Below are positions 3,649-41,965 of a DNA stretch of 42,199 nucleotides, piece after piece. The notes beneath the pieces are model-generated. The model saw only the letters and a list, made by a program, of their open reading frames with translations, made no database searches and was not told the origin of the DNA. Numbering within the stretch: the stretch's first letter is position 1; each line of letters starts with the position of its first letter. Made by a program: the position numbers and the translations under genes. This DNA is from a virus, in the IMG/VR virus record IMGVR_UViG_3300032738_000164, positions 1 to 42,199 of that record. One strand, given 5' to 3'.

Positions 3649-3649
3649 A

Positions 3650-6538: not shown

Positions 6539-6550
6539 GGGGGACCTGCC

Positions 6551-8201: not shown

Positions 8202-8212
8202 GAGAAAGTCAA

Positions 8213-10068: not shown

Positions 10069-10078
10069 GAGGTAACTC

Positions 10079-10618
10079 ATGGCCAACGAGATTCTTGTCA
10101 AGACTGGTACGCCCGTGTGTTGGGCCGACACAACGGACTACAGCAGCACAGGCAGTGGGATTAGTCGCACACATCAGCTTGACCTTACCAGCATCGCCGA
10201 TACCGAGGCCCGTGAAGGGGCCAAGGCCGATTTGGGTGCGACCCGGGCGGCCCGGTATGCGGTTCTGGTCGGCATCGAAATGGATGTAGCTCCAGTTGCC
10301 GGCGAGGTGGTTGAGTTCTACTGGTCGAGTTCTTACCATGCGACGGCTGGGACAGGGAACGACGGTGGGGCGACGGGTGCCGATGCAGATTACAAAAATG
10401 GCGACGAAGCGGAGTGGGTTAAGCAACTGACGTTCCTCGGTGCTCTTGTGCTGACTGCCGATGCCGATACCGTCATACAGCGGGCTTGCATCGGTACATT
10501 CTGTCCGCCGGACCGCTATGGGATGCCGATTGTTAAGAACGAGGGAGGGCAGGCATTTGAGGGTGACGCGGTCGAAGCTTATGTTGCCTTGATTCCTATC
10601 ACAGACGAGTTACAATGA
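10079..10618 (+). CDS. Conserved phage structural-type protein, unknown function
   Basis: 179 residues, preceded by TAGGAGGTAACTC. It looks beta-rich: ILVKTGTPVCWAD, YAVLVGIEMDVAPVAGEVVEFYWSSSYHA and a C-terminal AYVALIPITDELQ. The 'GEVVEFYW' section followed by an acidic G/D-rich loop suggests a beta-sandwich appendage. It sits between a small conserved phage protein and a lectin-like protein, so a virion or fibre accessory role is plausible. The stop overlaps the next start. Confidence 0.55.
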   Translation: MANEILVKTGTPVCWADTTDYSSTGSGISRTHQLDLTSIADTEAREGAKADLGATRAARYAVLVGIEMDVAPVAGEVVEFYWSSSYHATAGTGNDGGATGADADYKNGDEAEWVKQLTFLGALVLTADADTVIQRACIGTFCPPDRYGMPIVKNEGGQAFEGDAVEAYVALIPITDELQ

Positions 10619-12955: not shown

Positions 12956-13476
12956 CGGACATGTGGCGACGGGACGGCCGCCACGACGAAGTGGTGGCGT
13001 ATCGCACCCGCGTCCGGCACCGGCTCAAGAAGGAGGGCAAGCTGCGGGCAGAGGCTTTGGAGCGATCGTGGGAGGCGGCTCGCGATGCCTTCCCGCCAAT
13101 CCGTCCTCCTCCGGAGGACGCAAAGACCAAGGGCAAGGGTGCTGCCGCTTCACAACTTCCGAAATCCTGGAGCAAACTTCCGGCGTCTGCGCCGTTCGGG
13201 GTCGAAGTGGAATGGGTGCATCAGAACCGTGTTCTCGTAGTCGAGGAGCGGTCTGCCGGCAAGTCGGTTTTACACTGGGATCGTGCCCAGAAGTCTGCGC
13301 CCAGCTATGGGGCGGTGAACCTGATGGAATACGCGGCGACGAACCGGAAAGGTTTCATGGACATCCTTCAGCGAGTGAATCCCGGGGACGCAGGGGAGGA
13401 GCAAAACGTCCGGCGAGAAAAGCGCTCGATTAACGATATTGAGGCGCTACTCGACCAAATGGCCGAGCTTAGTTGA
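12919..13476 (+). CDS. Terminase small subunit candidate
   Basis: 185 residues directly upstream of the large terminase, the usual place for TerS. The N terminus is basic and helical (LDKIKLTDMWRRDGRHDEVV, RHRLKKEGKLRAEALERSW), as expected for a DNA-binding domain. A Pro/Lys linker (about 58-75) follows, and the C-terminal part (GVEVEWVHQNRVLVVEE, LMEYAATNRKGFMDIL) is mixed alpha/beta and would oligomerise or touch TerL. I do not recognise a specific TerS family, so the call rests mainly on position, size and charge. The ribosome site before the ATG is weak. Confidence 0.5.
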   Translation: MAEGPKLDKIKLTDMWRRDGRHDEVVAYRTRVRHRLKKEGKLRAEALERSWEAARDAFPPIRPPPEDAKTKGKGAAASQLPKSWSKLPASAPFGVEVEWVHQNRVLVVEERSAGKSVLHWDRAQKSAPSYGAVNLMEYAATNRKGFMDILQRVNPGDAGEEQNVRREKRSINDIEALLDQMAELS

Positions 13477-13483
13477 GGCCCCA

Positions 13484-18671: not shown

Positions 18672-19008
18672 CAGCGTAGCAAGGCGATTTCGGTGCGTTG
18701 ATGGGCAGGTGAGAGAAGTCACTGAAGGGGATCGCGCGGATGTTGAAAGCGTGAATATCACCGGGCGAAAGCTGTTGCCCATGTCGCATAACGACATCGA
18801 GGGATATTCGATTGGCAAGTCATTGTCATCCCCGACTCCCGAGACGATCGCCGAGGAAAACGAGTTTTGCCGTAAGCGCAACATTAAGGGCGTTCGGTTT
18901 GATCCGAGCCACAAACATAACTGTCGTATTACCAGCAATCGCGGGTTCGCAGAGTACCTAAAAGCAAAGAACCTGTACAACGAAGATGCTGGATTTAACG
19001 GGTTTTGA
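18664..19008 (+). CDS. Conserved small phage protein between portal and scaffold
   Basis: 114 residues starting at GTG 18664, which overlaps the portal stop; GGGAGG lies five bases upstream. Sequence: MSSSVARRFRCVDGQVREVT, then a middle with SHNDIEGYSIGKSLSS, and a C-terminal helix-turn segment with HKHNCRITSNRGFAEYLKAKNLY. The last part (RFDPSHxHxxxITSNRgFaEYLKAkNLynEDAGF) looks like a compact conserved motif that I recall from other phages at this position. No known function; possibly a head assembly accessory. Confidence 0.65.
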   Translation: MSSSVARRFRCVDGQVREVTEGDRADVESVNITGRKLLPMSHNDIEGYSIGKSLSSPTPETIAEENEFCRKRNIKGVRFDPSHKHNCRITSNRGFAEYLKAKNLYNEDAGFNGF

Positions 19009-19023
19009 AAAAGGGAGGCTACC

Positions 19024-20181
19024 ATGCCTACTGACGAAAAAACAGCGGAACAGGTTGACATGTACATCGGCGGTACGGGAGACGATACCGATTGGGGCAA
19101 ATTGAGTCCCGACCAGCAGAAATCATCGGTCGATGAGGCTTACGCGGAAGTGCAGGCAAAACGCAATCCCGAAGTAGCTGCCGACGTGAAAGCCGCAGAC
19201 ACGAAGGTCGAGGGGGACGAGCAGGATGCCGAAACCACAACCGAAACACCCGCCGACGGCGACGACGATTCCGTCGTTGGCGATGCCGCTCCTCCGAAGG
19301 AGACTGACGAGGGCGAAGAGGGTGAAGGCGATAAGGGCGAGCCTGGTTCAGCCGACTGGCTAGACGATGACGCTCGCGAGATTGCAACCGCGATGGGCCT
19401 AAACGAGGAGGATTTGTCTGAGTTTGGCTCGCGCGAAGAGTTGGACCGTGTGCTGCGACTCATGAATCGCAATGCGTTCGATGCCGGAAAGGCCGGCGAC
19501 GAGTCTGATCGACAGGCCGCCGCTGAGGCCAAACGGAAAGAACAAGCGGCGTATCAGCAGCAACAAGACCAACGCAAGCAGCAAGATCGGCAAGCCCAAG
19601 ACCAACCGGATGATCCTTTTGCGGATCTGGCCAAGTTCAAACTCGGCGACGAGTTTGACCAGGAAGCCGCAAAGCCGCTGAATGACTTCGTCGAAGCGGC
19701 GGGCGCGGAGATTCGCGGCTTGCGATCCGAAGTGGCCCAACTGAAGGAGGAGCGGGCGCATGAGGCCGCCGCACACATCCGGACACAAGCCTTGGAATCC
19801 CTGCATTCTCTCGGTCATACGGAGCTATTTGGAAAGCCCGGCGATAGGCCCACTAAGGAACAGGCCGCAAACATCGCCAAGGCAATCGACGCGCATCTCA
19901 TTCAAGCTGAGATATTGATAGCGACCGACCGGGAGGTTGCCCCGACCCCAGCGTTTTTGAAGTTCGCCGTAGGAATGGAGTTCGAGGACGAACTAAAGAA
20001 GTACCAACAAAAGCAGCTTACGCAAAAGCTCCGCAAGCAATCATCGCGACGGACTGGTGGTTCTGCGGCACGTTCTTTGTCTCCAGTTCCTTCAGCCGAC
20101 GAGACCCCTCGCCAGCGAGCCGAAAGGTATCTTGCCGATGGTCTCGGAGAGCGATTCAAAGAGCTTACGGAGCAGTCGTAA
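19024..20181 (+). CDS. Scaffolding protein candidate
   Basis: 385 residues, highly charged. Residues about 40-115 are very acidic and repetitive (AETTTETPADGDDDS, ETDEGEEGEGDKGEPG). A helical domain with EIATAMGLNEEDLSEFGSRE follows, then a long Gln/Lys/Arg coiled coil (YQQQQDQRKQQDRQAQDQ) and another helical stretch (AAGAEIRGLRSEVAQLKEER). The C terminus is basic (QKLRKQSSRRTGGSAARS), as in scaffolds that bind the coat protein. Composition, size and position directly before the capsid gene fit a phage scaffold. No protease triad seen. AGGGAGG upstream of the ATG. Confidence 0.75.
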   Translation: MPTDEKTAEQVDMYIGGTGDDTDWGKLSPDQQKSSVDEAYAEVQAKRNPEVAADVKAADTKVEGDEQDAETTTETPADGDDDSVVGDAAPPKETDEGEEGEGDKGEPGSADWLDDDAREIATAMGLNEEDLSEFGSREELDRVLRLMNRNAFDAGKAGDESDRQAAAEAKRKEQAAYQQQQDQRKQQDRQAQDQPDDPFADLAKFKLGDEFDQEAAKPLNDFVEAAGAEIRGLRSEVAQLKEERAHEAAAHIRTQALESLHSLGHTELFGKPGDRPTKEQAANIAKAIDAHLIQAEILIATDREVAPTPAFLKFAVGMEFEDELKKYQQKQLTQKLRKQSSRRTGGSAARSLSPVPSADETPRQRAERYLADGLGERFKELTEQS

Positions 20182-24983: not shown

Positions 24984-26636
24984 GTGCCAAGCAGAACGCT
25001 GGAATTGCGATTCCCGGCCGCCGGGGTTGTTCGGCGGTCGGGCTTTCGGGACTCAGTCCACGTCAGAGCGCCCTATCCGTCGCCGTGGGCGGTAAATGTC
25101 CGACTGGAAGACCCGTTCGCTCGTCGCTTGCGCGGAGGCAGCAGGTCCGGTCTGACCAAGTTCCGGGAGGAAGCGGTCGGGACCACCATCGCGGGAATGG
25201 TTGGGATTCAGACCTCCAGCACGTCGGGCACGGAAGAAATGCTCGTCGTGCTGGTTGACGGCACGATTGCCGTGATGAGCGGCAGTAGGCTGACTTTATC
25301 ACAGCTTACCGAATCACAGCTATACACGTTGAGCGAGGACGAGTTGTGGCTCCTGCTGGCTGGCGACATTTTTTATCCTCTTGTCTACCTCCTGGACGAA
25401 AGTGGGAGCTATATCGTCACCGAAGCGGGCGACAAAATTGTCATGAGCACGGCGGATGCGCCGTCTTCGGGATTTCTGGTCGGCGGCAAGCAGCATGTCT
25501 ATGTGATCGGCTCAACCGGCGTCGTGCAAATGGACCCCAGGACGGGTCTTGTGGTCGATCTGACGCCGACGGCCGGCACGGTCCCCTTGGGCTGTACGCT
25601 TGGATGCGTTTACCGTGATTGCCTGTTCTTGGCAGGCGGGGACAACGCGGCTTACAAGTCGCAACAAGCCGATTTCACGAATTGGGATTTTTCTACAGAC
25701 GTATCGAACACCAGCCGGGCGATGGCGTTTCAATTGTCCGGTGCCAGTGCGGTGGGCGCGATCCCAACGGCCCTCGTGCCGCACGAGGACGAGTTTCTAT
25801 TGCTCGCCACGGCGAGAACCCTCTGGGTGATTCGCGGCAACCCGGCCGGAGACGGGAGCCTTCGGCAAGTATCCGAGACCACGGGCATTGTTTCGTCTCA
25901 TGCCTGGTGCAAGGTTGGCGATGTGATCGTTTTCCTTGCGGAGGACGGAATCTATCAGGTGGGTCCGGACGGTTCGGGGCTCAAAAGTCTTTCAGAAGAC
26001 AAGCTGCCGGAGGACTTGCGGAACATCGACACGGCGACCACCAGCGTGCTGATGGGCTACGACCATGCTCAACGGGCCGTTCACATCTATCTAGTGACCG
26101 AGTCGGGCGGGGACACCCACTGGCTGTTCGAGTTGGTGCCGTTGGCTTTCTGGCCAATGCGCGTCCAAGACGGCCACGCACCGGTGGCGATCTGCCGTTA
26201 TGGGGAACATCTGCTGCTGGGGGGGTCTGACGGCTATGTCCGCTACCCGGGCGGCGACGACGACGACGGCGAGGACATCGAGAGCCACGTTTTGATTGGC
26301 CCTTTGCGGCTGGGTGGGCCGGAGGATTATGGCCTGCTCCACGTACTGCACGAAGTCATCGCTGCCGGCAGCGGAACGGTGACACTGCGCGTTGTGGCGG
26401 CCGATACGGCCGAGGAGGCCGTGGCTCACGCCAAGGTGGCGATCGAGTTGTACCAAAGCGACGATGACGACTATCTGGACTACGTTTCCTATAGCACGTC
26501 ATTGGCGGCGGGCCGAGCCCATCGCGACTATCCCCGAGTTCGGGCGATGTGGGCCTGCCTGTGGCTTCAGTCCACGGCGAAATGGGCCTACGAGAGTGTA
26601 ATCATGGACATTATGCCATTCGGGAAATGGCGATAA
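24984..26636 (+). CDS. Beta-propeller tail hub protein candidate (P22 gp10-like role)
   Basis: 550 residues from GTG 24984 (GGAAGAC upstream). The N terminus is basic, including FRDSVHVRAPYPSPWAVNVR and an arginine-rich LRGGSRSGLTK. From about residue 60 come repeated four-stranded blades: IAGMVGIQTSSTSGTEEMLVVLVDG, YVIGSTGVVQMDPRTG, CVYRDCLFLAGGDNAAYKSQ, DEFLLLATARTLWVIRGNP, VGDVIVFLAEDGIYQVGPDG, RAVHIYLVTE, YGEHLLLGGSDGYVRY. This is the pattern of a beta-propeller, as in the hub proteins that close short tails. The C-terminal part (HVLIGPLRLGGPEDYGLLHVLHEV) is a sandwich typical of such hubs. Order adaptor-then-hub agrees with P22-like tails. Confidence 0.62.
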   Translation: MPSRTLELRFPAAGVVRRSGFRDSVHVRAPYPSPWAVNVRLEDPFARRLRGGSRSGLTKFREEAVGTTIAGMVGIQTSSTSGTEEMLVVLVDGTIAVMSGSRLTLSQLTESQLYTLSEDELWLLLAGDIFYPLVYLLDESGSYIVTEAGDKIVMSTADAPSSGFLVGGKQHVYVIGSTGVVQMDPRTGLVVDLTPTAGTVPLGCTLGCVYRDCLFLAGGDNAAYKSQQADFTNWDFSTDVSNTSRAMAFQLSGASAVGAIPTALVPHEDEFLLLATARTLWVIRGNPAGDGSLRQVSETTGIVSSHAWCKVGDVIVFLAEDGIYQVGPDGSGLKSLSEDKLPEDLRNIDTATTSVLMGYDHAQRAVHIYLVTESGGDTHWLFELVPLAFWPMRVQDGHAPVAICRYGEHLLLGGSDGYVRYPGGDDDDGEDIESHVLIGPLRLGGPEDYGLLHVLHEVIAAGSGTVTLRVVAADTAEEAVAHAKVAIELYQSDDDDYLDYVSYSTSLAAGRAHRDYPRVRAMWACLWLQSTAKWAYESVIMDIMPFGKWR

Positions 26637-26654: not shown

Positions 26655-29600
26655 ATGCCCGACGTAAAAATGAGCGAAATGGACGCCGACGATGCGGTTG
26701 GCGGTTCCGAAAAACTGTTGGCTCTCGATGTTACTGACAGCAAGACCATCACGACCGACCAAATGGCGGCCTACGCGGTTGATACGCTGCTCTCAGCAGC
26801 GGCGGCCGATCCGACGACCGGGGACAACCTGGTCGCCGAGAGGAGCGGTACCGAGAAGCTGCTCGACCTGGACGCCCTGGCGGTGTACTGCGTGGCGTCG
26901 GGTTGGAGTGAAGCCTCCGAAGCCGACCCTGTGGTTGCGGGCGATATGATCCTCGTTGATCGGTCCGGTACGATCTACGAGATTGATGTAGATACGCTCG
27001 CCACCTACGTCCAAGACCCTACGTCAACGCTCAATGGCGTGGCTTCACTTGACGAAGCGACCCTTGCCGCCGCAGACGAATACCTCGTTGTCCAGAGTGG
27101 TGTCGCCAAGAAGACGGACATTGAGGACATTCAAGCCCAAATGTGGACGGCATACGGGCTCTACGTGGCCGCCCTGGACGATATCGCAACGCTTGCCGAT
27201 GCCGACGTCCTGTATGTACTTGAGGACGGATCGACAGCGAAATATGCCACGATGACGGAGTTAGCGACGTACATGCTGGCCGAGATTGGCGAGTCGGTCG
27301 CCGCATTGGTGTGGGACGATGCCGCTGCGGTTACTTCCGTGGCCGATGCCGATGTGTTTGTAAAAGAAGAGTCGGGCGTGCGAAAGAAGGTTAACGCTTC
27401 GTACATCGGGGCGTATGCGATTTCGGAACTGTTTGGTTCTACAGCCCTGACGCCCCCGGTTGTCGATAGCGACGATATGGTCCTGTACCGTTCCGGGGCC
27501 GCATACGTTGCGGATGCTGACGACTTCGCGTCCTACGTGCTCAACGAAGCGTGGGGACTCGATGCCGCCGGGGCCCTGGCTGATGCCAATACCTTGATGG
27601 TCGGCCAGTCCGACGTGGCCAAGGAAGTCGCCTTGTCCGTTGTGAAGACCTATGTGCTTGACGGGATGCAAGATACGGCATTGGATGTATCCGGACTGTC
27701 AGGGGCCGCTCCACTTGCGGCAGGCGACAAGTATTTAGCCTGGCAAGCCGATGTGGCAGTCTACACCACACTCGGCACGATCGAGACGAAGTTGTGGACA
27801 GATTTCGCCACTTACGTGAATGCGACGTTGGTGGATATTTCGAGTCTTGCGGCTGCCGATCGATTCTACGTGCTGGATGCCGGCACTGACCCCAAGTATT
27901 GCACGGCTGCGGAAATCGCCGCCTATGTCGCCGGTCCGCTATTTGACCTGGCTGACGCTGGTGCGATTGTGGGTACCGACAAACTCCTAATGGAAACGGC
28001 AGGGACGCCCAAGACACTGCTGGGAAGTGATTTGTTGACTTATATCGAGGGGGGCATCGACGCGGCAAATCTCGACTTTGATATTTCCGGGTTTGATTCG
28101 GCTGTCTTGGACAATGCCCATCTCCTTTTCGTCAGTGATGGTGCCACCGAGGAGAAAGCGACCGTCGCCGAACTTGAAGCCGTTTTGTGGGCCGATTTCA
28201 GGACGTATACCGTGGGGCTGGGCGCGGTGGTAACGGTGGCCGACACAGACAAGTTCTGGGTCGATCAAGGCGGAACGGCCAAGTACGTCACGCCGGTTGA
28301 ATTGGCCACCTATGTCGAATCGGCGATTGAGGCGACTGTAATTGCCACCGCGTTCGACGCGGCGGACGCCACTAATTTCCTGGCGGCCGACTTGATCTTG
28401 ACGGAGCGATCGGGCACACCGCACACGGCAACGGCGTCCGATGTGGCGACCTACGTGGTCGGCGTCTTAGGCGGGAGCGGGGCTGGCACGCCGACCACCG
28501 GCGACGACTTCCTGTTTTTCCACAGTGGCGACCCTAACCTCGGCGACATTGACGAGTTGGCAGACTATGTCATCGGAAAGGCTTTTGACAACGCCGATCC
28601 TGACCCGATCGCGTCAGGCGACCTTCTGGCCGTCGAGCGGAGCGGCACTGCCTACACAGCCGACATCGACATCATCCAGACGTATATCCTGAGCGGGCTC
28701 CAAGACACGGCCCTTGACATTGCCACAATCGACGCCGCCGGAGGGTTATCGACCGCCGACAAGTATCTCGTCTGGCAGTCGGACGTTGAGAAGTACACGA
28801 CGCTTTCGGCAATTGAGACGAAGCTCTGGACGGATTACGCCACGTATGTCCACGCCCTATCGGACATTGTGACATTGGCCGATGCAGATGAGTTTTATGT
28901 GCTCGATGCAGGGACGACCGCCAAAAACGGAACGGTCCTGGAAGTCTACACTTACGTCTTAGGGAAGTTCTGGGCCGCCGCCGCGTCCGATCCCATCGTC
29001 ACGGCCGATACGCTACTCATCGACCATAGCGGGACGATGAAAGAGGCGACGGTCGATCAACTCCAGACGTTCGTTCTCGATGGTATCCAGGCCGATGTGC
29101 TCGACATTTCAGGGCTCGATTCTGCTACTGTAGACGGTGCCGATCTGGTCGTGGTGTGTGAAGGATCAACTGGTAAGAAGGCGACTGTCACGGAACTTGC
29201 GGCGGGCATCTTCGGAACTTTTGATACCTATGTGGCCGGTCTTGATCCCGTCGATCCCGTGGAGGACGCCGATAAAATCTACATCGTGGAGGGTGGTGTC
29301 GGAAAATACGTGACGCCTGTGGTGCTGATGGAATACGCCTGGGCGGCCGTCACGGCAAAGATTCAAGGTCTCGCTGCGAAGACGACGCCCACCGAGAACG
29401 ACATTCTCCTGATTCAGGACGAGGCGAACGGCGATGCGTTGAAAGAATTGACGATCGGCAACTTGTGGGACAATTTGCTTGCCGATAGTGCGTTGAATGT
29501 GCCTTGGGCGACGATAGCGACCTCAAAGTACACGGCATTACCGGCAAGTACCTCGACGATTACCATGTCCGACACGAGCGATATGGCTGTCGGCCGCGCT

Positions 29601-30122
29601 CTGAGGTACACCTACGACAGCGTAACCTACTACGGAATCATTACGGCCGTCACGGAAGATACGAGCATCACAATTGCCGGTGCGGCGTTGAATGTCGCAA
29701 TTCAGCTTTCAGCCCTGGCGATTGGCCTGCCCTCGCTGATCGAGCAGGTCGAGTTCTTTGTAGAAGCGGCCTGGGGCGATGCCGTCGAGGATATTCTAGC
29801 GGAGATAGGAAAGAAGAATTTCAAGTGGGGCAAGAGCATTGCGCATTTGGTCGCGTTTTCAGCAGCAAACCACACCGTCGATACTGGAGCAGAACCCAAA
29901 CTGAACGTCAAGGTCGCCGGGAGTGCAGTATCTACGAACGACTCGAACAACGGCGTTCAGCTTGGGGCGGCGGATACCTGGGTAGACAATCCGGCTATCG
30001 CAATCTCGGCGGCGAATTACACTATCGAACGCGGCGATGCCCTGGAACTCGCTTGTACAGTCGTCGGCGGAACCGGCGATGCGACAGGCTTAACCGTATC
30101 TTGTGTTTTCGTTTACGAATAG
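26655..30122 (+). CDS. Giant tandem-repeat phage protein (about 22 x 43 residues)
   Basis: 1155 residues, AGGAGG upstream. Residues about 10-935 are tandem units of roughly 43 residues with the consensus 'aDkflVxrSGTxKxatvxeLatYV', i.e. strand, SG(T) turn, strand, helix. Every fifth then third unit (bases near 27144, 27795, 28188, 28827, 29211) has the variant start (K/A)xW(T/A)D(F/Y)xTYV preceded by a longer linker like LDISGLDSA; spacing alternates 217, 131, 213, 128 residues. The C-terminal ~220 residues hold separate beta domains (VGRALRYTYDSVTYYGIITAV; LELACTVVGGTGDATGL). No signal peptide. Likely a long fibre or an ejected internal protein; the family is unknown to me. Starts 18 bases after the hub gene. 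Confidence 0.75.
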   Translation: MPDVKMSEMDADDAVGGSEKLLALDVTDSKTITTDQMAAYAVDTLLSAAAADPTTGDNLVAERSGTEKLLDLDALAVYCVASGWSEASEADPVVAGDMILVDRSGTIYEIDVDTLATYVQDPTSTLNGVASLDEATLAAADEYLVVQSGVAKKTDIEDIQAQMWTAYGLYVAALDDIATLADADVLYVLEDGSTAKYATMTELATYMLAEIGESVAALVWDDAAAVTSVADADVFVKEESGVRKKVNASYIGAYAISELFGSTALTPPVVDSDDMVLYRSGAAYVADADDFASYVLNEAWGLDAAGALADANTLMVGQSDVAKEVALSVVKTYVLDGMQDTALDVSGLSGAAPLAAGDKYLAWQADVAVYTTLGTIETKLWTDFATYVNATLVDISSLAAADRFYVLDAGTDPKYCTAAEIAAYVAGPLFDLADAGAIVGTDKLLMETAGTPKTLLGSDLLTYIEGGIDAANLDFDISGFDSAVLDNAHLLFVSDGATEEKATVAELEAVLWADFRTYTVGLGAVVTVADTDKFWVDQGGTAKYVTPVELATYVESAIEATVIATAFDAADATNFLAADLILTERSGTPHTATASDVATYVVGVLGGSGAGTPTTGDDFLFFHSGDPNLGDIDELADYVIGKAFDNADPDPIASGDLLAVERSGTAYTADIDIIQTYILSGLQDTALDIATIDAAGGLSTADKYLVWQSDVEKYTTLSAIETKLWTDYATYVHALSDIVTLADADEFYVLDAGTTAKNGTVLEVYTYVLGKFWAAAASDPIVTADTLLIDHSGTMKEATVDQLQTFVLDGIQADVLDISGLDSATVDGADLVVVCEGSTGKKATVTELAAGIFGTFDTYVAGLDPVDPVEDADKIYIVEGGVGKYVTPVVLMEYAWAAVTAKIQGLAAKTTPTENDILLIQDEANGDALKELTIGNLWDNLLADSALNVPWATIATSKYTALPASTSTITMSDTSDMAVGRALRYTYDSVTYYGIITAVTEDTSITIAGAALNVAIQLSALAIGLPSLIEQVEFFVEAAWGDAVEDILAEIGKKNFKWGKSIAHLVAFSAANHTVDTGAEPKLNVKVAGSAVSTNDSNNGVQLGAADTWVDNPAIAISAANYTIERGDALELACTVVGGTGDATGLTVSCVFVYE

Positions 30123-30132: not shown

Positions 30133-33100
30133 ATGGCCGTTACCGACCTCGCAACCGTCAATCCGAATACGCCCAATCTGGACCCGATCTATCGGGGCAG
30201 CCCGTATGCCGGATTCTGGTGGACGCAGAACTACGTGTCCGGGATTCCCGAGACGGCCCTTTCGTGGATGCTTGCGCAGGGCTGGAAAATCATTTCCACG
30301 CAGCCGGATACCTCGACAACGCCGCCGACGATCTATTACACCATGCAACGGGAGGTAATGAACAACTGGTTGATTCTGCAAACGCTGATGAACCAGTTGA
30401 CCAGCGCCTACAATGAAGCGAACCTGAAGAACAGCACTCGTTACAACGCCGTTGTCAGCGATTGGTGTGAGATGCTGGACTCGTCGATGGACGACATGGA
30501 GGACTCCGTCAGCGAAACCAATACCAACCTCTCGTTGTACCTGAACAACCTCGCTACCTACATGGATGAGGTCGATACGGAGATTGACGAACTCAAAAGC
30601 GATGCGACCGACGCGGCGGACGTGGTTACGACCCAATTGGCAACCTGCTTGTCGAAAATCGACGAGATAGAAAGCGATTACGCAGCACATCTGGAAACGA
30701 TCGAGGCTATAGTCACCCAGCAGTCAACCGCGCTGGCCACCTTCTTGACCGACTATGGTGCATCGCTCACGACACTCCAAAACAACTACGCCGCCCATCT
30801 CACCGAGATAGCTTCACTCTTGACGGATCAGTCTGACTTGGCGGCGGGTTATCAGTCGAGCCACGCGAACAAACTCACCGAGTTGAACACCGAGACGGAA
30901 TCGCACCGAACGACGATCGAGGCGAATGTCGCCGACGAAGCCAGTACGCTGGCATCCCACTTGACGAACTACGCCGCCCACTTGACCTCCTTGGGGACCG
31001 GGTACAGCGAGCACGCGGGTACAATGGGGACGATCCTTACCAACATCGCTTCAGCCCTGGCGGCCTACCGGACAGACTACCAAGGGTCCTTGGATGACCT
31101 GGCGGGCGAGGAGGTTGACCACCGGGCCGAAGTGACGGCGATTTTGACAACCGAAGCGACGAACCTAGCAAATCACCTGACCGGCCATATTGCCGAATTG
31201 AGCACCCTCGGCTCGGATCATTCTGCCCATCGAGTCGAAATTGAGAGTTTACTGACGGCCCAGACTAACGCCTTGGCGACGTACCTGACCGACTACGATG
31301 CGATACTCCAAGAGTTGGGAACAGAGTATGATTCCCACTTGGTGACGGTACGGGGATACGAGACGACGGCCACCAGCGACCTTGCTGCGCACATCACGAC
31401 TCAGCTTACAAGTCTCGCTACCTTGTTGACGGACTACACGAGCCACGAATCGATGTTAGACGGGCTGACGGCGACGGCGGACTCGACCCTCACGCTCCAT
31501 GTCTCGGACTTGAATACGCGGCTTGCAACGATCCTGGCCGATTACAGCACACTCGACGATTCGATTTCGGACCTAATTGGGGATGCCGAGACCGCCTACA
31601 GCGGTCACGCGACGGATTACGATGCGCTTCTCGCTCTTCTGCTGTCTGATTTCACCACACATGAAACCACGGCCGAAGCCCTATTGGTCGATCTGGGGTC
31701 GACGGAACTCGCCCGGATCAACGAGACGTTCGACGCCCGGCTGGCAGAGGCCACCCAAAGCCTGATCGACCGCGGCTTCTACTCCTCGGACCTCGCCGAG
31801 GGGATGGAAAGCCGAATCGAGCGGGAGCGCAGTGAGGCTATCTCGGGGCTGAACGACCGGCTGGCACGGGAAAAGCTCGAAAACGAGCACCAGCTTTACG
31901 GGCAACAGGTCAACGTCCGGACCCAAACGCTCGCCGGGACCGATCGGCTCCATTCCTTGCAGCAAGAGATTATCCGATACCATGCGGAGGCGATCACGCG
32001 GCTATACGGCCAGCTACAAGACACCCGAAACCGTACCCTGACGACGAAACAATCAATTTACGGGGTTCAGCAACAACTCATCACCTGGAAGACGGATCTG
32101 GAATCGGGGCTGTATGCCAAGCTGAGTGCGGTCCGTACCGGGACCCTCGAACAGGTGGGTCGTATCCACCAACTGCGAGACGCCCTTTCGCAATGGAAGA
32201 CGGCAAACGAAACCAGGGTCCATTCTGAGCTTCTGGGCGTCCGTGGGCAGGAGATTGAGGCCGCCGGCCGCGAACACCAGGCTACCCAAGAGGTACGACG
32301 AGCGGCGGCCTCAGAGCGCCACGGGATGTTCCAAGAGCTTATGGCCGAGGTCCGGACCCAACTGGACGGCCTTGACAAGCAATATGCCGCACGTGTGGAC
32401 GTTACGCGAAACAGCACGGCTGAGCAACACAGGCTATTTGCGGGGATTATGGGCGTTTTGACCAAGACGCTCGACGGCATCGATCGCAAGCATGGGGTCA
32501 CTCAAGAGGTCTACGGGAGCACGGCAGCGCAGAGGGACAAGCTGTTTGCCCAGTTGTCCGCGGAGATCGGGCAGTTGCTTGAAGGGCTAGACAGAGAGCA
32601 CGCGGCCAGCATGGACGTGAGCCGCAACGAGGCATCCCAGTATGACCGGCTGCTCGGGAGGATCAACGAATGCCTCAAGGCGATGCTCGACGGGATTGAT
32701 CGTCGTCATTCGGTTGACCAGGAGGTCTCCCGGTTTGAGACCGGGCAGCGGGACAAGCTGCTGGCTCAGGTCCAGGACGTTAGGGCACGAGTGCTCGGCG
32801 GAATCGAACGAGAACAGGGGACGAAGCACGATGTTTACGGAGCCAAGGCCGGCCAGTACGACAGCCTATTCAACCAGCTTCAGCAGTCTACCGGGATGAT
32901 CCTCGACGGCAAGCAGAAGTACAACGCCCAATTGATGGCCAACTCGCAGTTCCTTACCGAGATACGGCACAAGCTCTGCTCGAAGAAAATGGAGGCCAAC
33001 CTCCAGCGGCTTCAGGGACGCCTGATAGTTGACGGCAAGCAACAAGAACTCATCAAGTACATGATCGACACCAGAAACAACATCCTGATCGGGCTGTTCG

Positions 33101-33204
33101 GGTTCGAGGAGCGGAGGGAGGATCAAGGACCAGATTTGTCGCAGATAGCACAGTTGGCGATCAGCCTGGGAGACAGTGGTTCGACTTCTTGGGTCAGCCC
33201 GTAG
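30133..33204 (+). CDS. Giant helical protein with exact 36-residue repeats
   Basis: 1023 residues. Residues 1-75 form a small alpha/beta start (YRGSPYAGFWWTQNYVSGIP). Residues 182-505 (30676-31647) are nine units of exactly 36 residues, 'xYxxHxxxIxxLLTxxxxxLAxxLTDYxaxLxxLgt'. A 78-residue linker with LIDRGFYSSDLAEGMESRIE follows. Residues 584-943 (31882-32961) are ten more 36-residue units of another type, 'xrxxLfxqlxxvrxxxLdgidrxHxxxxeV', the last diverged. 36 residues is ten turns of an alpha-helix. No signal or membrane segment. Candidate ejection-tube, tape-measure-like or fibre-shaft protein; the RGFYSS section recurs in large phage coiled-coil proteins as I recall them. Confidence 0.8.
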   Translation: MAVTDLATVNPNTPNLDPIYRGSPYAGFWWTQNYVSGIPETALSWMLAQGWKIISTQPDTSTTPPTIYYTMQREVMNNWLILQTLMNQLTSAYNEANLKNSTRYNAVVSDWCEMLDSSMDDMEDSVSETNTNLSLYLNNLATYMDEVDTEIDELKSDATDAADVVTTQLATCLSKIDEIESDYAAHLETIEAIVTQQSTALATFLTDYGASLTTLQNNYAAHLTEIASLLTDQSDLAAGYQSSHANKLTELNTETESHRTTIEANVADEASTLASHLTNYAAHLTSLGTGYSEHAGTMGTILTNIASALAAYRTDYQGSLDDLAGEEVDHRAEVTAILTTEATNLANHLTGHIAELSTLGSDHSAHRVEIESLLTAQTNALATYLTDYDAILQELGTEYDSHLVTVRGYETTATSDLAAHITTQLTSLATLLTDYTSHESMLDGLTATADSTLTLHVSDLNTRLATILADYSTLDDSISDLIGDAETAYSGHATDYDALLALLLSDFTTHETTAEALLVDLGSTELARINETFDARLAEATQSLIDRGFYSSDLAEGMESRIERERSEAISGLNDRLAREKLENEHQLYGQQVNVRTQTLAGTDRLHSLQQEIIRYHAEAITRLYGQLQDTRNRTLTTKQSIYGVQQQLITWKTDLESGLYAKLSAVRTGTLEQVGRIHQLRDALSQWKTANETRVHSELLGVRGQEIEAAGREHQATQEVRRAAASERHGMFQELMAEVRTQLDGLDKQYAARVDVTRNSTAEQHRLFAGIMGVLTKTLDGIDRKHGVTQEVYGSTAAQRDKLFAQLSAEIGQLLEGLDREHAASMDVSRNEASQYDRLLGRINECLKAMLDGIDRRHSVDQEVSRFETGQRDKLLAQVQDVRARVLGGIEREQGTKHDVYGAKAGQYDSLFNQLQQSTGMILDGKQKYNAQLMANSQFLTEIRHKLCSKKMEANLQRLQGRLIVDGKQQELIKYMIDTRNNILIGLFGFEERREDQGPDLSQIAQLAISLGDSGSTSWVSP
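30676..31647 (+). repeat. Nine 108-bp coding repeats (36 residues each), array A
   Basis: Nine consecutive in-frame units without a single length change; a tenth starts at 31648 and fades out. Conserved spots: aromatic or acidic at position 2, His at 5, Leu at 20, Leu at 31. DNA identity between units is low, so the array is old and kept by protein-level selection. Confidence 0.85.
31882..32961 (+). repeat. Ten 108-bp coding repeats (36 residues each), array B
   Basis: Nine clear units plus one diverged unit of exactly 36 residues. Units 5-9 share (Q/E)(R/Y)(D/H)xL(F/L) at the start, LDG(I/L) at 17-20 and 'xxVxR/Y' near 29-32. Same period as array A but a different consensus, 234 bases (78 residues) downstream. 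Confidence 0.85.
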
Positions 33205-35072: not shown

Positions 35073-36245
35073 ATGGGCATCAAACTGAAATACGGTGCAT
35101 CCCCCGCGATGGTGATGGTCGCCGGTTACGCTGCCGGCCGGGGTAAGCGTGCAGAACGCGACCGAAATCGCGCGGACCGGATGATGGTATTACAGCGGCG
35201 GGCGATGCAACGGCAGCAACGCCTCCAATACGAGCACGCCTGGCGGCTACAGGGGAGGGAAGATCGGTTCAACCTGGAGGAAAGGAGGATTGAGGCCCAG
35301 GACGAACGTGCTGCGCTTCATGCGGAAGCACTGATCGTGCGTGAGTCAACCCGGGCCGGCACTCAGGCAGCACGCGACGAGCGCATGACTGACGAACTCT
35401 GGAAGCGCCAGAAGAGGGGGGCCGCTTATCAAGAGGAGTTCCGGCAGCGGGGAGCGGAAGATCGCCGTCAGTTACAAGAGGACGAGGACAGAGAACAAGG
35501 GCTGCGAGACGGCTCGCTGTACTACGCGCCAAAACAAAAGGAGCGCTTGGATAAGCTGGCCAACGACGAGGCCACAATCTCGATGTCCAACCAGGGAACG
35601 CCGGAAGAGCGAGCCGATCGCATCCAGGAGATCCGGGAAGAACGACGAGCGATCAAGCCGTTCCAAACTCCTGCCGATGAAAAGCCGCCAACTCCGACCG
35701 AGATGTGGGACGATATGATGATCGGCATTAACCCCAAGACGGGGCGAGTCGCCAAGGAAGGCGAAGAGAGCGTGCCGGGATACATCAACCCCAAAACCGG
35801 CCTGCCTGAATTGCTCGAACTACCTTCTTCTGCCAAGGCGGACAAAGAGGCAGAGGCCGCCAAGGACAAGGCGAGGACGGCACAAAACAAAGAGGCAATG
35901 GGGGCTAGAGACAGGGTTCAGGGCACGCGCAAGGAGGGCGATACGAAACGAGTCACGGCGACGGAAACCATCAACGAGATGAAATACCATCGCAAATTCC
36001 TGGACGACGTAAACAGAGGATTGAACCCTGATGAGGCCGCAGCAGCCCCCGGCGACGACATTGGGGACAAGATCACCGGCGCGGATGCGTCCGGACAAGG
36101 CGCTGCCGCCGCCCCGCAACCTGAACCTGCACTCACCGGCCTAAACGCTCCTCCAAGCGTACAAACGCAGGACGACCTCGATCGCGTACCGATTGGCAGG
36201 GTGTTTCGTGGCCCTGACGGCAAACTGTATAGGAAAACCAAATGA
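35073..36245 (+). CDS. Internal virion-type helical protein
   Basis: 390 residues. The start MGIKLKYGASPAMVMVAGYAAGRGKRAERDR has the small Gly/Ala-rich, 'AAGRGKRAER' entry I associate with internal virion proteins of T7-like and related phages. Residues 30-160 are a highly charged long helix (Arg/Gln/Glu-rich: VLQRRAMQRQQRLQYEHAWR, EDRRQLQEDEDREQG). The rest is a low-complexity linker with PKTGRVAKEGEESVPGYINPKTGLPELLELP, and the C terminus is VFRGPDGKLYRKTK. It ends in the next gene's start (ATGA). A role as ejection or internal head protein is an inference from style and position. Confidence 0.6.
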   Translation: MGIKLKYGASPAMVMVAGYAAGRGKRAERDRNRADRMMVLQRRAMQRQQRLQYEHAWRLQGREDRFNLEERRIEAQDERAALHAEALIVRESTRAGTQAARDERMTDELWKRQKRGAAYQEEFRQRGAEDRRQLQEDEDREQGLRDGSLYYAPKQKERLDKLANDEATISMSNQGTPEERADRIQEIREERRAIKPFQTPADEKPPTPTEMWDDMMIGINPKTGRVAKEGEESVPGYINPKTGLPELLELPSSAKADKEAEAAKDKARTAQNKEAMGARDRVQGTRKEGDTKRVTATETINEMKYHRKFLDDVNRGLNPDEAAAAPGDDIGDKITGADASGQGAAAAPQPEPALTGLNAPPSVQTQDDLDRVPIGRVFRGPDGKLYRKTK

Positions 36246-39200
36246 ATTGGTGGGAAAGCCGCAGCGAGCCGGTCATGCCTCAGACGGCGCTCCCTTTGGA
36301 GCCTGTTGAGGATCGATGGTGGGAAGCCCGGAGTGAGCCGGTTGTCACCCCAGCCGGGAAACCCGCCGGTGTCGTGCCGCGTGTCGAGGACTTCGACCAA
36401 TGGCGAGGCGTAGCGCGCGGCGGATTGTACGAGGGAGCGGACGGTCAGCCGTACCTTAAGCGGTTCCGGAAGGTCAAGGAGTACGAATCGGGTAAACCCG
36501 TCTGGGAGGCTGGCGGCGGGCAACCGGTGACGCCGGCTCATGCGGAGGCCCGGAAACGATGGCTCAAGGAGGACGCCGAGCGGAAGGAGCCGATGGCACC
36601 TTTCGACTGGGTGAAACGCCAAGCAAGATATGCCGGCACCGGGGTCGAAACCCGTGGCCGTTCACCACAAGGCGGCTACGACTGGACACACGCCACGGAC
36701 CGCGTCCAGTTCGACGAGCAACGAATCAAGGCGGATTTCCAACGCAATTTTCCTGATCTGAAATGGACGAAGCAGTTCAGCGAGTTCTATCGCCTTGCCG
36801 CGCAAACTTACCGGCTGGCGGAAATGGCTTACTTTGCCCGGCAAACCGGGCGGGGATTTCCAAGCAAACTGAGATTGCACATCGACAGGGTGATCGAGTC
36901 GAAAGCCTTATCGTCCCCCAAAGACCGGGGCCTGGTGATCGCGGCCACGCAAGAACTCGCCAGGGAGTACGGTACCCTCGCTGAGGACTCCGTTGTCAAC
37001 CGTGCTGTTACAGTTGCCGGTCGCGGTCTGGAAAGAGGCGATGCGGCGACCGTGGAAATGGCGCGGGGTTTGGCCGGGCTCGGCCAATCCGACGAGGATC
37101 GGCTATACAAACAGGCACTTATCGCGGCCAGAGAAGGAGGCGATCCGGTATTGCGCGAGGATGATCCCTGGTACATACGCGGGGGTCTCGGAGCGGCGGA
37201 AATGACCCCCTCGGCCGCCAAGGCGGCGGCGGGTGGTGTGATTGGGAGGGGATTGATGACCGGCAAGTTTGTCGGCCGCAAGGTGCTCTCAAAGGTGGCT
37301 CCCTACATTGGCGGTGCTGCGGGCACCACGACGGCCATGTATCCGGAGATGTATAAGAACACGTACCTCGAGCTGATCGGGGAAGGCGTTGATCCGGGTG
37401 TCGCAACGAAGGCGGCGGCCCTGTCCGGGCTTCTTCAGGGGGCTCTTGAGTCGATAGAAATCAATCCGTTCACCGGGAAGTTGCTTGGTCCAGCAAAGCG
37501 CCACATTCGCAAGACCGTTCTAAAAGCCGCCGCGGCAGGACTAAAGCGATACGGAAAAGAATGGTCCGAGGAATACGCTCAAGGCGTGACGGACGAGGTC
37601 ATCAAGGAGGTCGCCCGGTACACGCAAAACAAGACAGGGCGGAAGGGGTTTGGCGAAGCACTTCGGAAAGGCGTAGCAGAGGGCTGGGCGGCGGGTGGCC
37701 CGTTGTTGTTTATGGTTGGTCCGGGTATAGTAGCGGAAACCACAATGGCGGCTACTGGTCGGCTTGACAAGATTGACCAGCAGGGCGGGACACCGAGTCG
37801 CACGGACGCTGTGGAATTAGGTATCCCGAAAGACCAGGCCAAAGGAGTGCCGGGTCGCCGGGAGTGGTACGAATACAATCGTGACCGTTTACGAAAGGAG
37901 ATCGAAGATGCCCGCAAAGTACGAGAAGATGAGGGACGAGTTCAAGAGACAGGGATTGTCGGACAAGGCCGCGAAGAGGAAGGCGGCGCGGGTTTACAAC
38001 GCCAAGAGGAAACCGGGGCAGAAGCCCGTGACGAGGGGGTCCCATTCGTCCAAGTAGACACCGGGCTAGAGCCAGGACCACCGCCTCCACTGCCTCTACC
38101 GCCTGCTGAACCAAGGCCGCCGCTTGCACCAGGTGAGCGTCCCGCCTCGATCAAGAACCGAATCGTCGATGAAGAGCGGGCGGCGCGTGGTGCCCCGGCT
38201 CTGACCAGTGAAGGGGGCGGTAGTCTCCCGCTCTGGGATCGTCAGGCGGTCGAACGTGCGAAGGCCGACTCCAGTTGGCTTCCCCGCCTTGTCGTAGAAC
38301 TGCACAGCAATCTCCGCGCCCCTGACCCTGTTGAATCCGCCGGGTTGGTTCACCACCTGCAATCAGCTTGGCAGGACTATGAGAAGGCCGCGGCGCGGCA
38401 AGTGGCACTGAACGACAGCGGCGACGCAAAAGGTGCCGAGGCAATGAGGTCGGAACTCGCAGACCTCGACAAGGCACGCGATGAGATCGAGCGGCTTGTG
38501 CGACGGACCGGGACCGCCTCGTCTTACAGTCTTATGGCGCGCAAATTGGAGTTGAGGGAAGATGGGTCCGTTGCCGGCCTCACCCGTCGGAGGCGGACCA
38601 AGAAAGATGGCGCTTCGCTGACGGTCGAGGAACGCGCGGAAATCGAAAAGCAGGCGAAGGAGAACAAGGCGCTAGAAGAGAGGATCGAGGAACAAGAAGA
38701 GGAAATTGCCTACTATCGTGAGAACGAAGCCCAAGTAGAGATTGATCGCAAGATTGCGGAGACTACCGGGAAGCGACGGGCAACCATTGAAAGCCGCTTT
38801 AGAGAGCAATACGACACGGCGCACGAGTATGGGATTGATCCGAAGAACCTCCGTGAAGCTGCCAAGGAGCGAGCGGAAGTTGTGGCTGAGGTCGCGCGCG
38901 AATACAACGAGGCTTACCGGGCGGTGGTGAAAGCCACCGGGCTCACACCCGCGGTGATCCGCGACATTGAAGAGGGCCGGTTTTTTGTGGGTGGAAAGCG
39001 AGTTGAGATTTCCGAATACGGAGGGCTCGACGAGAAGGCGGCTATGCTCGCCCGGGAGTACCCCGAGCTTGGCTTAGTGCCGGAGGAAGGCGACGTAGAG
39101 CAGACGGGGGACTATTCGCAGGACCTCGTAGAACTCATCAAACGGGGGCCGCGTCACGTCCCGGAGTGGCACGAGAAACTTGCGGAAGTCGCGGGTGAAA

Positions 39201-41965
39201 TGGCGGCCGAAAAGGGCGAGGAGCTACCAAAGGAACTGACGGATTTCTTTGAGTCCAGGCAGCCAGGGGAAGACGACTTTGATTTAGAGCCCGAGCCAGC
39301 GCCGGAAAAAGCCGGCAAGCCGGTCGTGCCCCGCAAGAAGGAGTTGGAAACCAAACCGCCAAAGAAACAGACTCGCAAGGCACGGGCAGAAGCGGCCAGA
39401 CAAAAGGTCACGGTTGCGTGGTCGGACTTGCGAAAAGCCATGTCTGAGACCGCCAAGGGGACGATTCCCACCGCTGGCGGAATTCCTGTCGAGGTCATCA
39501 ACAAGCTCGTGAATTTGGGCCGGGCCTACGTTGAGCTTGGTGTGACGACGTTCTCCGAGTGGTTGGCCAAGGCAAAGGCGGACGGCGGTGGCCGGGAAGT
39601 AGAAGCCGACCGGGAGGGGTTCCGTGAAGCGTGGCGAAGGCTGTCGGAGGCCGGCGAGGTTCCTTCGCCTGTGCATGGTCCCGCCGATATGGCCGGCGTC
39701 GGCCGGCTGGCGGAAAAGCTCCTCACTTGGGTTGTGGATTCGGGCATCGAAAACCGCGATGACGCGATCGATCAGGTTCATGTGGAACTGAAGGCGATCC
39801 TCCCCGACATCACGCGGCGGCAGACAATGGAAGCGATATGCAGGTACGGTGAGTTCAAGGAACTAAAAAAGGACGCGCTGAGCGTGCAGGTTCGGGCTAT
39901 CAAGGGGGAAACACGGCAAGTCCTAAAGCTCGAAGATATGGCCGAGCGGCGGGCTCCGTTGGCGAGCGGATGGGAGCGACCACAGCCAGGCGATGAAGAG
40001 CGCCGGTTGATCCAGAGGGTTAATGAGGCAAAAAAGAGAGGCGGGTTTGTCGTCACTGATCCGGACCGGCAATTGAAGTCGGCTATCGGCGCGGCCAAAA
40101 CGGCGGTCCGCAACCGGATTGCCGACATGGAAGAGGAAATCAGGACCGGCGAAAAGATCATCAAAGAACGGACGCCATTGAAGGCCGATCCGGAGCTTGA
40201 AGCACTTCGCCGTCGGCGTGATGAATTGAAAGTCACCTGGGCCAAGGCATTCCCGGCCAAGAAGCCGATTCGCAAACTGACGGACGCGCAACGGCTCAAG
40301 ATACTCGGCAGCGCCCTGGACCGTGAATTTGCCGCTATCGAGAAGGACTTGGCCGCGGGGCGATTAGGCCCCAAGCCGAAAGGCGTGCCGCTGACTTCGC
40401 CCGAGATTGAGGCCAAGCGGGCGGCGATCGCCAAAGTGAAGGCCCAGCGGGAGGAACTACGAGCGGCAAGCCCGGAGTATCAAGCCGAGCTTGAGGCGAG
40501 GGAGACTGCCAGGTACAGACGATCACTGGAGCGGCGGTTGGTGGATGCAGAAACACGGCTTGCCAAGGCCAAGCAAGGATGGTTGCCGGAAAAGAAAGTC
40601 CCGAAACCGAGATCAGAGGAAGACCTCCAAGAAACGAAGTTTCGGCTTGACCAATTGTGGCGGGAAATCCGGGCCGCTGAAGAGAAGACGCGGCGGGCAC
40701 ACCGCACACTGCCGGCGAAGATTCTCGGCGGCGTGGGCGACCTTGGCGACCTGTCGATGGCGCTGATGACCGCGTTCGAGCATTCTTCCGTGTTGCGGCA
40801 GGGGATTCCTTATACGGTTGGTTTCCCCACAAAAGCCGTCCCGGCGGCCATAAACGCCGCCAAGGCAGCATTTAGTCGGCGCGTCGATTTCTCTATTCAC
40901 GAAGACCTCGCTCAACGGCCAAATGCACAGGTCGGCGATTACCAACGTGGCAAACTGGACATTACTACGGCGGCCGGGCCACTAGAGAGCAGAGAGGAGA
41001 TGCTACGTTCCCGGATTATCGACTGGCTCAGCGAACAAAAGGGCCTGAAGGCGCTGCCGGGTCGAGTGATAGCTGAGGGCGTTCTTGGTTCCGAGCGGGC
41101 GTTTAGATCGTTCCGCAATACGATGGCCGCCGACATATTCGATTACACAAAAGCCAGCATCGAGTCGTCGCGCCCGTGGACCGCTGACGATGCGAGGGTC
41201 GTCGGGCGGGCCTCAAATATCTTCAGTGGTCGCGGGGAGCTTCGCCACGGCGTTGGTTGGTCGCGGGTGTTCTTTGCGCCGCGATGGGTTTGGTCGAGGG
41301 CGCAGCTTGCGGTCGGACAGCCCTTGTGGAAGGGGGATGCGGCGACACGAAAAGCGATCGGAATGGTTTATGTCCGCTGGGCGTTGGGCATGACGACGTA
41401 CATCATGTTGCGACATGCGATCTACGCACTACTGGCGGACGACGAGGATCAATACCCGCGCTATAACTTGAACCCACTATCGACTGATTTTGGAAAACAG
41501 GTAGTCGGGAAAACGCGGATTGGTGTTGGAACGGGCGTGACTCAGTTAGTGACGCTGGGGGCCAGGCTGGCCACGGGGAAGAAGATGACCGGGAAAGGCG
41601 AGATTGTTCCGATAAGTGGCGAGGATGTGCCCTACGGTGGGGAAAACGCCTGGAATATCATCACTAACTACGGACGGATGAAGCTCGCGCCTCTTCCGAG
41701 CGGGGTGATTGACTATCTGGTCGGCAAAAATGTCGTGCATCAACCTGCCACCCCCACGTCAATCATCAGGGAGCGATTCGCGCCGATCACCTGGGTAGAC
41801 ATATTTGCGGCCGAGAAGGAGCTAGGCGTCAAGCAGGGAACCGTGGCAGCGTTCGAGGCCTTCTTCGGCTCCGGGCTCAACACCTACAGCGACGACTGGC
41901 AGAGGTCCAAACGCAAGCGCGCCTCTCGCCGGCCGTTCGGGCCGGGCCGTAGCCCCTCTAAGTAG
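36242..41965 (+). CDS. 1907-residue giant phage protein with LPD38-like C terminus
   Basis: Largest gene in the window. Residues 3-10 and 26-33 repeat WWESRSEP/WWEARSEP. An N-terminal helical region (to about 480) contains Gly/Ala-rich hydrophobic stretches (AAAGGVIGRGLMTGKFVG; WAAGGPLLFMVGPGIVAETT), then a Pro-rich linker (GPPPPLPLPPAEPRPP) and long charged coiled coils (EEQEEEIAYYREN; KVKAQREELRA). From about 1490, the segment with KILGGVGDLGDLSMALMTAFEHSSVLRQG, the later membrane-like WALGMTTYIMLRHAIYALL and the end ITWVDIFAAEKELGVKQGTV...FGSGLNTY match the layout of large polyvalent protein domain 38 found at the end of giant ejected phage proteins. Likely injected with the DNA; no catalytic domain recognised, and parts may be membrane inserting. 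Confidence 0.7.
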   Translation: MNWWESRSEPVMPQTALPLEPVEDRWWEARSEPVVTPAGKPAGVVPRVEDFDQWRGVARGGLYEGADGQPYLKRFRKVKEYESGKPVWEAGGGQPVTPAHAEARKRWLKEDAERKEPMAPFDWVKRQARYAGTGVETRGRSPQGGYDWTHATDRVQFDEQRIKADFQRNFPDLKWTKQFSEFYRLAAQTYRLAEMAYFARQTGRGFPSKLRLHIDRVIESKALSSPKDRGLVIAATQELAREYGTLAEDSVVNRAVTVAGRGLERGDAATVEMARGLAGLGQSDEDRLYKQALIAAREGGDPVLREDDPWYIRGGLGAAEMTPSAAKAAAGGVIGRGLMTGKFVGRKVLSKVAPYIGGAAGTTTAMYPEMYKNTYLELIGEGVDPGVATKAAALSGLLQGALESIEINPFTGKLLGPAKRHIRKTVLKAAAAGLKRYGKEWSEEYAQGVTDEVIKEVARYTQNKTGRKGFGEALRKGVAEGWAAGGPLLFMVGPGIVAETTMAATGRLDKIDQQGGTPSRTDAVELGIPKDQAKGVPGRREWYEYNRDRLRKEIEDARKVREDEGRVQETGIVGQGREEEGGAGLQRQEETGAEARDEGVPFVQVDTGLEPGPPPPLPLPPAEPRPPLAPGERPASIKNRIVDEERAARGAPALTSEGGGSLPLWDRQAVERAKADSSWLPRLVVELHSNLRAPDPVESAGLVHHLQSAWQDYEKAAARQVALNDSGDAKGAEAMRSELADLDKARDEIERLVRRTGTASSYSLMARKLELREDGSVAGLTRRRRTKKDGASLTVEERAEIEKQAKENKALEERIEEQEEEIAYYRENEAQVEIDRKIAETTGKRRATIESRFREQYDTAHEYGIDPKNLREAAKERAEVVAEVAREYNEAYRAVVKATGLTPAVIRDIEEGRFFVGGKRVEISEYGGLDEKAAMLAREYPELGLVPEEGDVEQTGDYSQDLVELIKRGPRHVPEWHEKLAEVAGEMAAEKGEELPKELTDFFESRQPGEDDFDLEPEPAPEKAGKPVVPRKKELETKPPKKQTRKARAEAARQKVTVAWSDLRKAMSETAKGTIPTAGGIPVEVINKLVNLGRAYVELGVTTFSEWLAKAKADGGGREVEADREGFREAWRRLSEAGEVPSPVHGPADMAGVGRLAEKLLTWVVDSGIENRDDAIDQVHVELKAILPDITRRQTMEAICRYGEFKELKKDALSVQVRAIKGETRQVLKLEDMAERRAPLASGWERPQPGDEERRLIQRVNEAKKRGGFVVTDPDRQLKSAIGAAKTAVRNRIADMEEEIRTGEKIIKERTPLKADPELEALRRRRDELKVTWAKAFPAKKPIRKLTDAQRLKILGSALDREFAAIEKDLAAGRLGPKPKGVPLTSPEIEAKRAAIAKVKAQREELRAASPEYQAELEARETARYRRSLERRLVDAETRLAKAKQGWLPEKKVPKPRSEEDLQETKFRLDQLWREIRAAEEKTRRAHRTLPAKILGGVGDLGDLSMALMTAFEHSSVLRQGIPYTVGFPTKAVPAAINAAKAAFSRRVDFSIHEDLAQRPNAQVGDYQRGKLDITTAAGPLESREEMLRSRIIDWLSEQKGLKALPGRVIAEGVLGSERAFRSFRNTMAADIFDYTKASIESSRPWTADDARVVGRASNIFSGRGELRHGVGWSRVFFAPRWVWSRAQLAVGQPLWKGDAATRKAIGMVYVRWALGMTTYIMLRHAIYALLADDEDQYPRYNLNPLSTDFGKQVVGKTRIGVGTGVTQLVTLGARLATGKKMTGKGEIVPISGEDVPYGGENAWNIITNYGRMKLAPLPSGVIDYLVGKNVVHQPATPTSIIRERFAPITWVDIFAAEKELGVKQGTVAAFEAFFGSGLNTYSDDWQRSKRKRASRRPFGPGRSPSK

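Follow-up and report, generated by a model that had tools for sequence, protein, structure and literature searches.

The two arrays of 36-residue repeats in this viral protein are very probably the two facing antiparallel arms of one hairpin, and across related viruses these arms grow and shrink jointly in mirror-image steps of 36 residues. The period, the lockstep of the arms, the mirror-image insertions and deletions (indels), and the co-scaling of a neighboring gene were all computed from the proteins. The overall picture is that of a rod whose length can be adjusted. Our best explanation as a whole, to which we assign a probability of roughly 75%, is a hairpin rod of lockstep arms that acts as a tail component. 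The window, meaning the whole stretch of DNA analyzed, is an entire IMG/VR record of 42,199 bases. The gene and its parts are as follows.

30133..33204, + strand: gene of the putative hairpin-rod protein, whole (1023 aa; repeat-lag analysis; family of 55 distinct homologues)
30190..30447, + strand (residues 20-105): conserved N-terminal anchor (profile anchor N), a predicted small beta domain at the base with the start of the first helix (AF2 model of L166)
30448..30624, + strand: helical stretch joining the N domain to the paired arm, constant in length at about 56 aa, from the constant arm 1 minus arm 2 difference of 56
30625..31683, + strand (residues 165-517): arm 1 of the putative hairpin, containing array 1 (anchors, lag and unit analysis)
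31684..31926, + strand (residues 518-598): conserved segment of the putative hairpin tip (profile anchor T in 55 members)
31771..31788, + strand (residues 547-552): predicted turn RGFYSS (AF2 turn at the equivalent L166 residues 205-210; mirror center of the indels)
31927..32985, + strand (residues 599-951): arm 2 of the putative hairpin, containing most of array 2 (anchors, lag and unit analysis)
32986..33201, + strand: conserved C-terminal anchor, ..RNNILxGLxGFxERRxD..LGDxG..W.xP (profile anchor C)

In an ungapped lag analysis scored with BLOSUM62, a lag of 36 residues ranked first in the whole protein (z, 21.9) as well as in array 1 (z, 15.8) and array 2 (z, 17.6); any lag in 200 shuffles stayed at or below 4.8. 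Secondary lags appeared at 72, 54, 18, 25, and 11 residues, and those at 18, 54, 25, and 11 show that the 36-residue unit is 18+18, built from mixtures of 7 and 11. Array 1 comprises nine units (residues 182-505; 30676-31647) and array 2 ten units (residues 584-943; 31882-32961). When each unit was scored against the other units at shifts of up to ±9, shift 0 was best for 9/9 units of array 1 and 10/10 of array 2; the register is thus unbroken, with no indel in either array. A weaker in-register unit follows each array (residues 506-541, to 31755, after array 1; from residue 944 after array 2). The consensus sequences differ, that of array 1 being acidic and rich in Thr, Asp, Tyr, and His, and that of array 2 being rich in Arg and Gln. 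The preliminary description, which had reported two arrays of units exactly 36 residues long with no indels and differing consensus, was therefore borne out on each of these points. It had rightly placed both arrays in one protein, although calling a protein of 1023 aa "giant" was generous, and it had missed that the two arrays are probably opposite arms of one hairpin.

Relatives were reached through the synteny of the portal and capsid genes followed by a scan of open reading frames (ORFs) for the 36-residue period, which revealed homologues in the same genomic place as the window gene. Together these proteins make up an unclassified family in uncultivated podovirus-like contigs, with at least 55 distinct members (304-1166 aa); the 55 counted are distinct proteins from family-alignment searches in which both ends and the middle are present. 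As a query, the window protein gave no match in cultured phages, and a single-sequence search of IMG/VR was also empty. The family profile found no cultured-phage relative, and searches of Pfam (34 members) and PHROGs returned stray weak matches that assigned no family. A scan of genome contigs yielded no family member, so no host is indicated. The earlier remark that no described family has this architecture accordingly stands as far as Pfam, PHROGs, PDB sequences, and cultured phages are concerned. The Pfam matches of the window protein itself (Baculo_PEP_C, DUF6507, IL11) fell below the cut-offs and look like generic helix matches, and PDB profile matches (spike HR regions, keratin, designed bundles) were set aside as generic coiled coil.

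To measure the arms, three anchor profiles (N domain, middle/tip, and C terminus) were placed independently in each protein, arm 1 running from the N to the middle anchor and arm 2 from the middle to the C anchor. Arm 1 spans 47-481 residues among the 55 proteins, and arm 1 minus arm 2 equals 56 in 50 of them (54, 57, 57, 63, and 63 in the others). Arm 1 plotted against arm 2 gave a slope of 1.003 (r, 0.9999; 55 proteins, after a first set of 35). Since a misplaced middle anchor would shift the arms in opposite directions, this agreement is not an anchor artefact. The arm 1 length classes of 85, 157, 229, 265, 301, 337, 409, and 481 residues are all 13 modulo 36, and a class of 247 represents one half-step of 18. 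Short members with an arm 1 of 47, 64, 67, 93, or 135 residues lie outside the 36-residue grid, with arms matched within 7 residues. One family member (L158 3800-4594) ends early, with the N domain and a little of arm 1 in place before other genes begin, and is either a broken gene or an assembly junction; it had been considered for a missing length class and was dropped, its gene being cut short.

Pairwise alignments revealed where the length changes fall. Between L119 and L157, two losses of 108 residues lie 56 (54-58) residues before the tip and 57 (57-59) after it. L144 and L159 are separated by indels of 72 and 36 residues in each arm, and the tip distances match. In L143, 18 residues are missing from each arm about 57 residues away from the tip, and L134 differs from L144 by 108 residues and, in the opposite direction, by 36, both on either side of the tip. 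Older pairs are blurred by the repeats, their position ranges overlapping or lying near each other. Such mirror-placed indels indicate that facing segments of an antiparallel hairpin were gained and lost together. One could instead regard the arrays as independent repeat regions with lengths equal by shared ancestry only, given that many members of one length class are closely related. This reading is largely refuted by the mirror-placed indel pairs between proteins that are 85-90% identical (L119 and L157), by the predicted hairpin fold, and by the tree built from the anchors alone (a quick tree with some open forks), on which at least 21 length changes are required with the arms matched throughout.

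Structural modeling pointed to the same hairpin. An AF2 model of L166, a member with minimal arms (338 aa), built with 34 family sequences reached a pLDDT of 84.4 and contained strands at 30-39, 52-59, and 66-76, a helix at 40-48, a long helix at 78-204, a turn at 205-210, a second long helix at 211-309, and a short final helix; its pTM was low (0.45), leaving the relative placing of the helices and base uncertain. The window protein modeled without an alignment was poor (pLDDT, 41), yet mostly helix. The predicted fold is thus two uninterrupted antiparallel helices turning at a conserved tip, at which the relatives carry RGLYSS or RGLYTS and the window protein RGFYSS. The hydrophobic period was 3.60 in both arms, with power at 3.50 and 3.67 equal to background, which argues for straight helices. 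Prolines were scarce, with 49 in 19,467 arm residues family-wide and 0 in the 706 residues of the window arms. Arm 1 was acidic in 47/47 longer members, and arm 2 was about neutral to slightly basic. By extrapolation from the L166 model, the helices would be about 66-70 nm long in the window protein and 77-81 nm in L132. Of the rod or tube proposed in the preliminary description, perhaps for DNA ejection, the straight helical rod agrees with the hydrophobic period, the absence of proline, and the long modeled helices; nothing in particular supported a tube or DNA ejection.

In the mechanism that we propose, the chain would run outward as a straight alpha-helix (array 1), turn at RGFYSS, and return as a second straight helix (array 2), the arrays packing antiparallel as one hairpin rod with both chain ends in the base domain. 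Thirty-six residues would correspond to ten turns of undistorted helix at 3.60 residues per turn, so that the contact face could stay aligned without supercoiling. A whole-unit gain or loss in one arm would be kept only with an equal change in the facing arm, giving a length-adjustable strut.

Lockstep hairpins are already known from chemoreceptors and SMC arms. The cytoplasmic hairpins of chemoreceptors fall into length classes by heptad number, with symmetric insertions and deletions in both arms (PMC5907407, PMC6628036). The phage family likewise combines an antiparallel helical hairpin, a conserved tip, and symmetric indels about the tip; it differs in that chemoreceptors use seven-residue heptads (3.5) in a supercoiled four-helix coiled coil, whereas the phage family uses steps of 36 (18) residues in a straight helix (3.60), and its gene sits in a tail region. 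The MCP signal domain had no Pfam match in 34 family members. SMC arms also have preferred lengths, which are multimodal in steps of about 100 aa (PMC5344682), and they resemble our family in that a single chain doubles back at a hinge to give an antiparallel arm, whereas the phage family changes in exact 36-aa quanta. Neither the ABC ATPase head nor the hinge domain of SMC/Rad50 had a Pfam match in 34 members. The best Foldseek match in the PDB was a fragment of the B. subtilis Smc arm (5nnv; E, 9.6e-4), and the chemoreceptor hairpins 2ch7 and 3zx6 were among the Foldseek and VIA-align neighbors. Kinship is not claimed from the VIA-align Z scores of 9-10.6, values that are also quoted for common helical arrangements. 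A literature search on another structural neighbor, Bbp12 of phage BPP-1, gave no paper. Periplasmic adaptors (HlyD/AcrA) carry the hairpin tip motif RLxxxxLxxxxxxS. This pattern occurred in only 2/55 tip segments, the conserved family tip being RGLY(S/T)S. The novelty lies in the protein family itself, in a length quantum of 36 residues of straight helix, in the location of the gene within a phage tail region, and in the co-scaling neighbor.

From 13 kb onward, the window reads as a podovirus-like structural block comprising an intein-bearing terminase, a portal, scaffold-like and capsid-like genes, the gene at 22369, a nozzle/hub-like gene, the partner gene, the hairpin gene, and the large genes at 35073 and 36242. 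The portal gene has a weak Pfam SU10_portal match, and the scaffold-like and capsid-like genes were assigned by synteny. The window portal and capsid proteins had no match in cultured phages, and the terminase ORF matches many cultured phages over its intein only. The genes flanking the hairpin gene are as follows.

24984..26636, + strand: nozzle/hub-like tail protein (weak PHROG family matches; synteny)
26655..30122, + strand: partner gene (1155 aa), beta-beta-alpha-like repeats of about 42 aa and a C-terminal domain, 11 bases upstream of the hairpin gene
29505..30119, + strand: C-terminal domain of the partner, whose L281 homologue has matches in a 735-kb phage and in a virus of Methanosarcinales
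35073..36245, + strand: charged helical protein, candidate ejection protein (syntenic homologue in G002; function inferred)
36242..41965, + strand: 1907-aa protein, candidate large ejection protein (syntenic G002 homologue, 24% identity over 441 aa; function inferred)

The hairpin gene of most relatives sits beside either the nozzle-like gene or the partner gene, and in those without a partner it occupies the slot after the nozzle-like gene. Weak PHROG matches of the nozzle-like family were to head closure Hc3 (5.7e-9), tail protein, and tail appendage; a PDB profile search of the family found nothing. In SU10, the needle gp18 follows the nozzle gp17 in number; it is built from three chains and has both coiled-coil and C-terminal domains (PMC9509320). 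Like the tail needles P22 gp26 and SU10 gp18, our family is a long, thin helical protein of the tail region; it differs in its within-chain hairpin and has no sequence match to needles. In many relatives, the hairpin gene lies directly after the nozzle/hub-like gene, whose putative identity comes from the weak PHROG matches.

The partner contains 22 repeats as counted by eye and 21 by profile, and repeat number scales with the length of the rod. By profile count, relatives with an arm 1 of 85, 157, 229, and 409 residues have 5 (6 by eye), 10, 12-14 (28 loci), and 21-22 partner repeats, respectively. This amounts to about one repeat per 20 arm residues (30 Å) over four length classes, two of which are single loci, with many relatives having no adjacent partner. 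One locus, L167, deviates from the scaling, with an arm of 93 residues and a partner-like gene of 1025 aa that is not adjacent. L281 has a minimal pair: its partner of 304 aa contains one or two repeats, and the 342-aa protein that follows has the tip motif only (hhalign probability, 82%). The co-scaling points to a partner placed along the length of the rod, presumably in contact with it. In lineages with this upstream fiber-like gene, the partner repeats would be arranged along the rod at about one per 20 hairpin residues. A PDB profile search of the partner family found nothing. The partner repeats also show a higher-order pattern, types recurring in blocks of three or five, with the top lag at 129 residues (three repeats). 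The C-terminal domain of the partner (L281 homologue, 6701-7615) reappears with low sequence identity in an uncultured phage of 735 kb and in a virus assigned to Methanosarcinales (LR756501.1:411191-411835 and BK063673.1:15951-16547, respectively) and looks like a portable tail domain.

In the virion, the hairpin protein would be a tail component next to the nozzle, forming the core of a fiber or needle. The main rival, which we consider unlikely, is that of an ejection (internal virion) protein that is stored in the head and, once released, builds or lines a channel across the envelope, with a protein length suited to the envelope of the host. The position of the gene just before the candidate ejection genes, the helix-rich protein, and BFVD neighbors named internal virion protein (A0A8S5MHT8, A0A6J5LSS8; low TM-scores) would fit such a role. 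The hairpin family gave no PHROG match, and its structural neighbors of this kind were loose. Scaling with an adjacent fiber-like gene, however, is not expected of an ejection protein. Given the sizes of small podovirus heads, a straight rod of 66-81 nm would be hard to store inside; the helices estimated for both the window protein and L132 exceed the inside of such a head. A rod too long for a small head, together with a co-scaling fiber-like partner, favors an external fiber core or needle over an ejection protein, and we lean modestly toward this tail role.

A helical repeat protein could also act as a ruler whose length sets that of the tail tube. Tape measure proteins have periodic helical repeats of 11 or 11-11-18 residues and change length by whole units (PMC3271669), features that resemble those of our family. 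The published W/F tape patterns occurred in 0/55 members, although such patterns are confined to about 5% of the proteins annotated as tape measures (PMC3271669). Arms that keep lockstep imply a chain folded back on itself as a hairpin instead of a single extended one; the group also resembles podoviruses, and among the genes searched none was recognized as a tail-tube gene. All of this makes a ruler very improbable. Returning to the tail component, a further and more tentative possibility, which we hold to be rather less probable than the tail role itself, is a previously undescribed two-component tail rod, in which the straight helical hairpin would serve as backbone and length standard and a repeat fiber protein of matching length would lie alongside, the two evolving in step in fixed quanta and thereby making the reach of the appendage tunable.

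The paired mirror-image 36-residue indels amount to an experiment done by nature on how register is maintained along a long rod. They also raise a genetic question, namely the joint origin of two distant, matched deletions. If both the tail role and the matching fiber are true, phages adjust how far an appendage reaches, one fixed step at a time. Protein designers would gain from the family a modular, straight helical rod, about 20 to 80 nm long.

Several further features were observed in the window and in related genomes. The terminase large subunit (13439-16432) carries an in-frame intein of about 343 aa (residues about 215-557) with a LAGLIDADG domain at 431-493; the relatives L002 and L003 lack this intein. 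Upstream genes of the window (2032-11463) with beta-helix, pectate-lyase-like, and laminin-G-like domains are likely further spikes or fiber parts. In distant viruses of the capsid group (L029, L031, L032, L037, L048), proteins of 1000-1600 aa downstream of the capsid gene have 11-residue-based periods and weak similarity to the family profile, and L102 encodes, downstream of its portal, a 787-aa ORF (17290-19650) with a 15-residue period (z, 22.5). The G002 contig (51,340 bases) has a 127-base direct terminal repeat, which suggests that this record may be complete, near ORFs of Cys-rich six-residue repeats, located as follows.

L003 153-743, - strand: ORF of CSDCYG-type repeats near the G002 terminal repeat
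L005 11-511, + strand: ORF of CSDCYG-type repeats near the G002 terminal repeat
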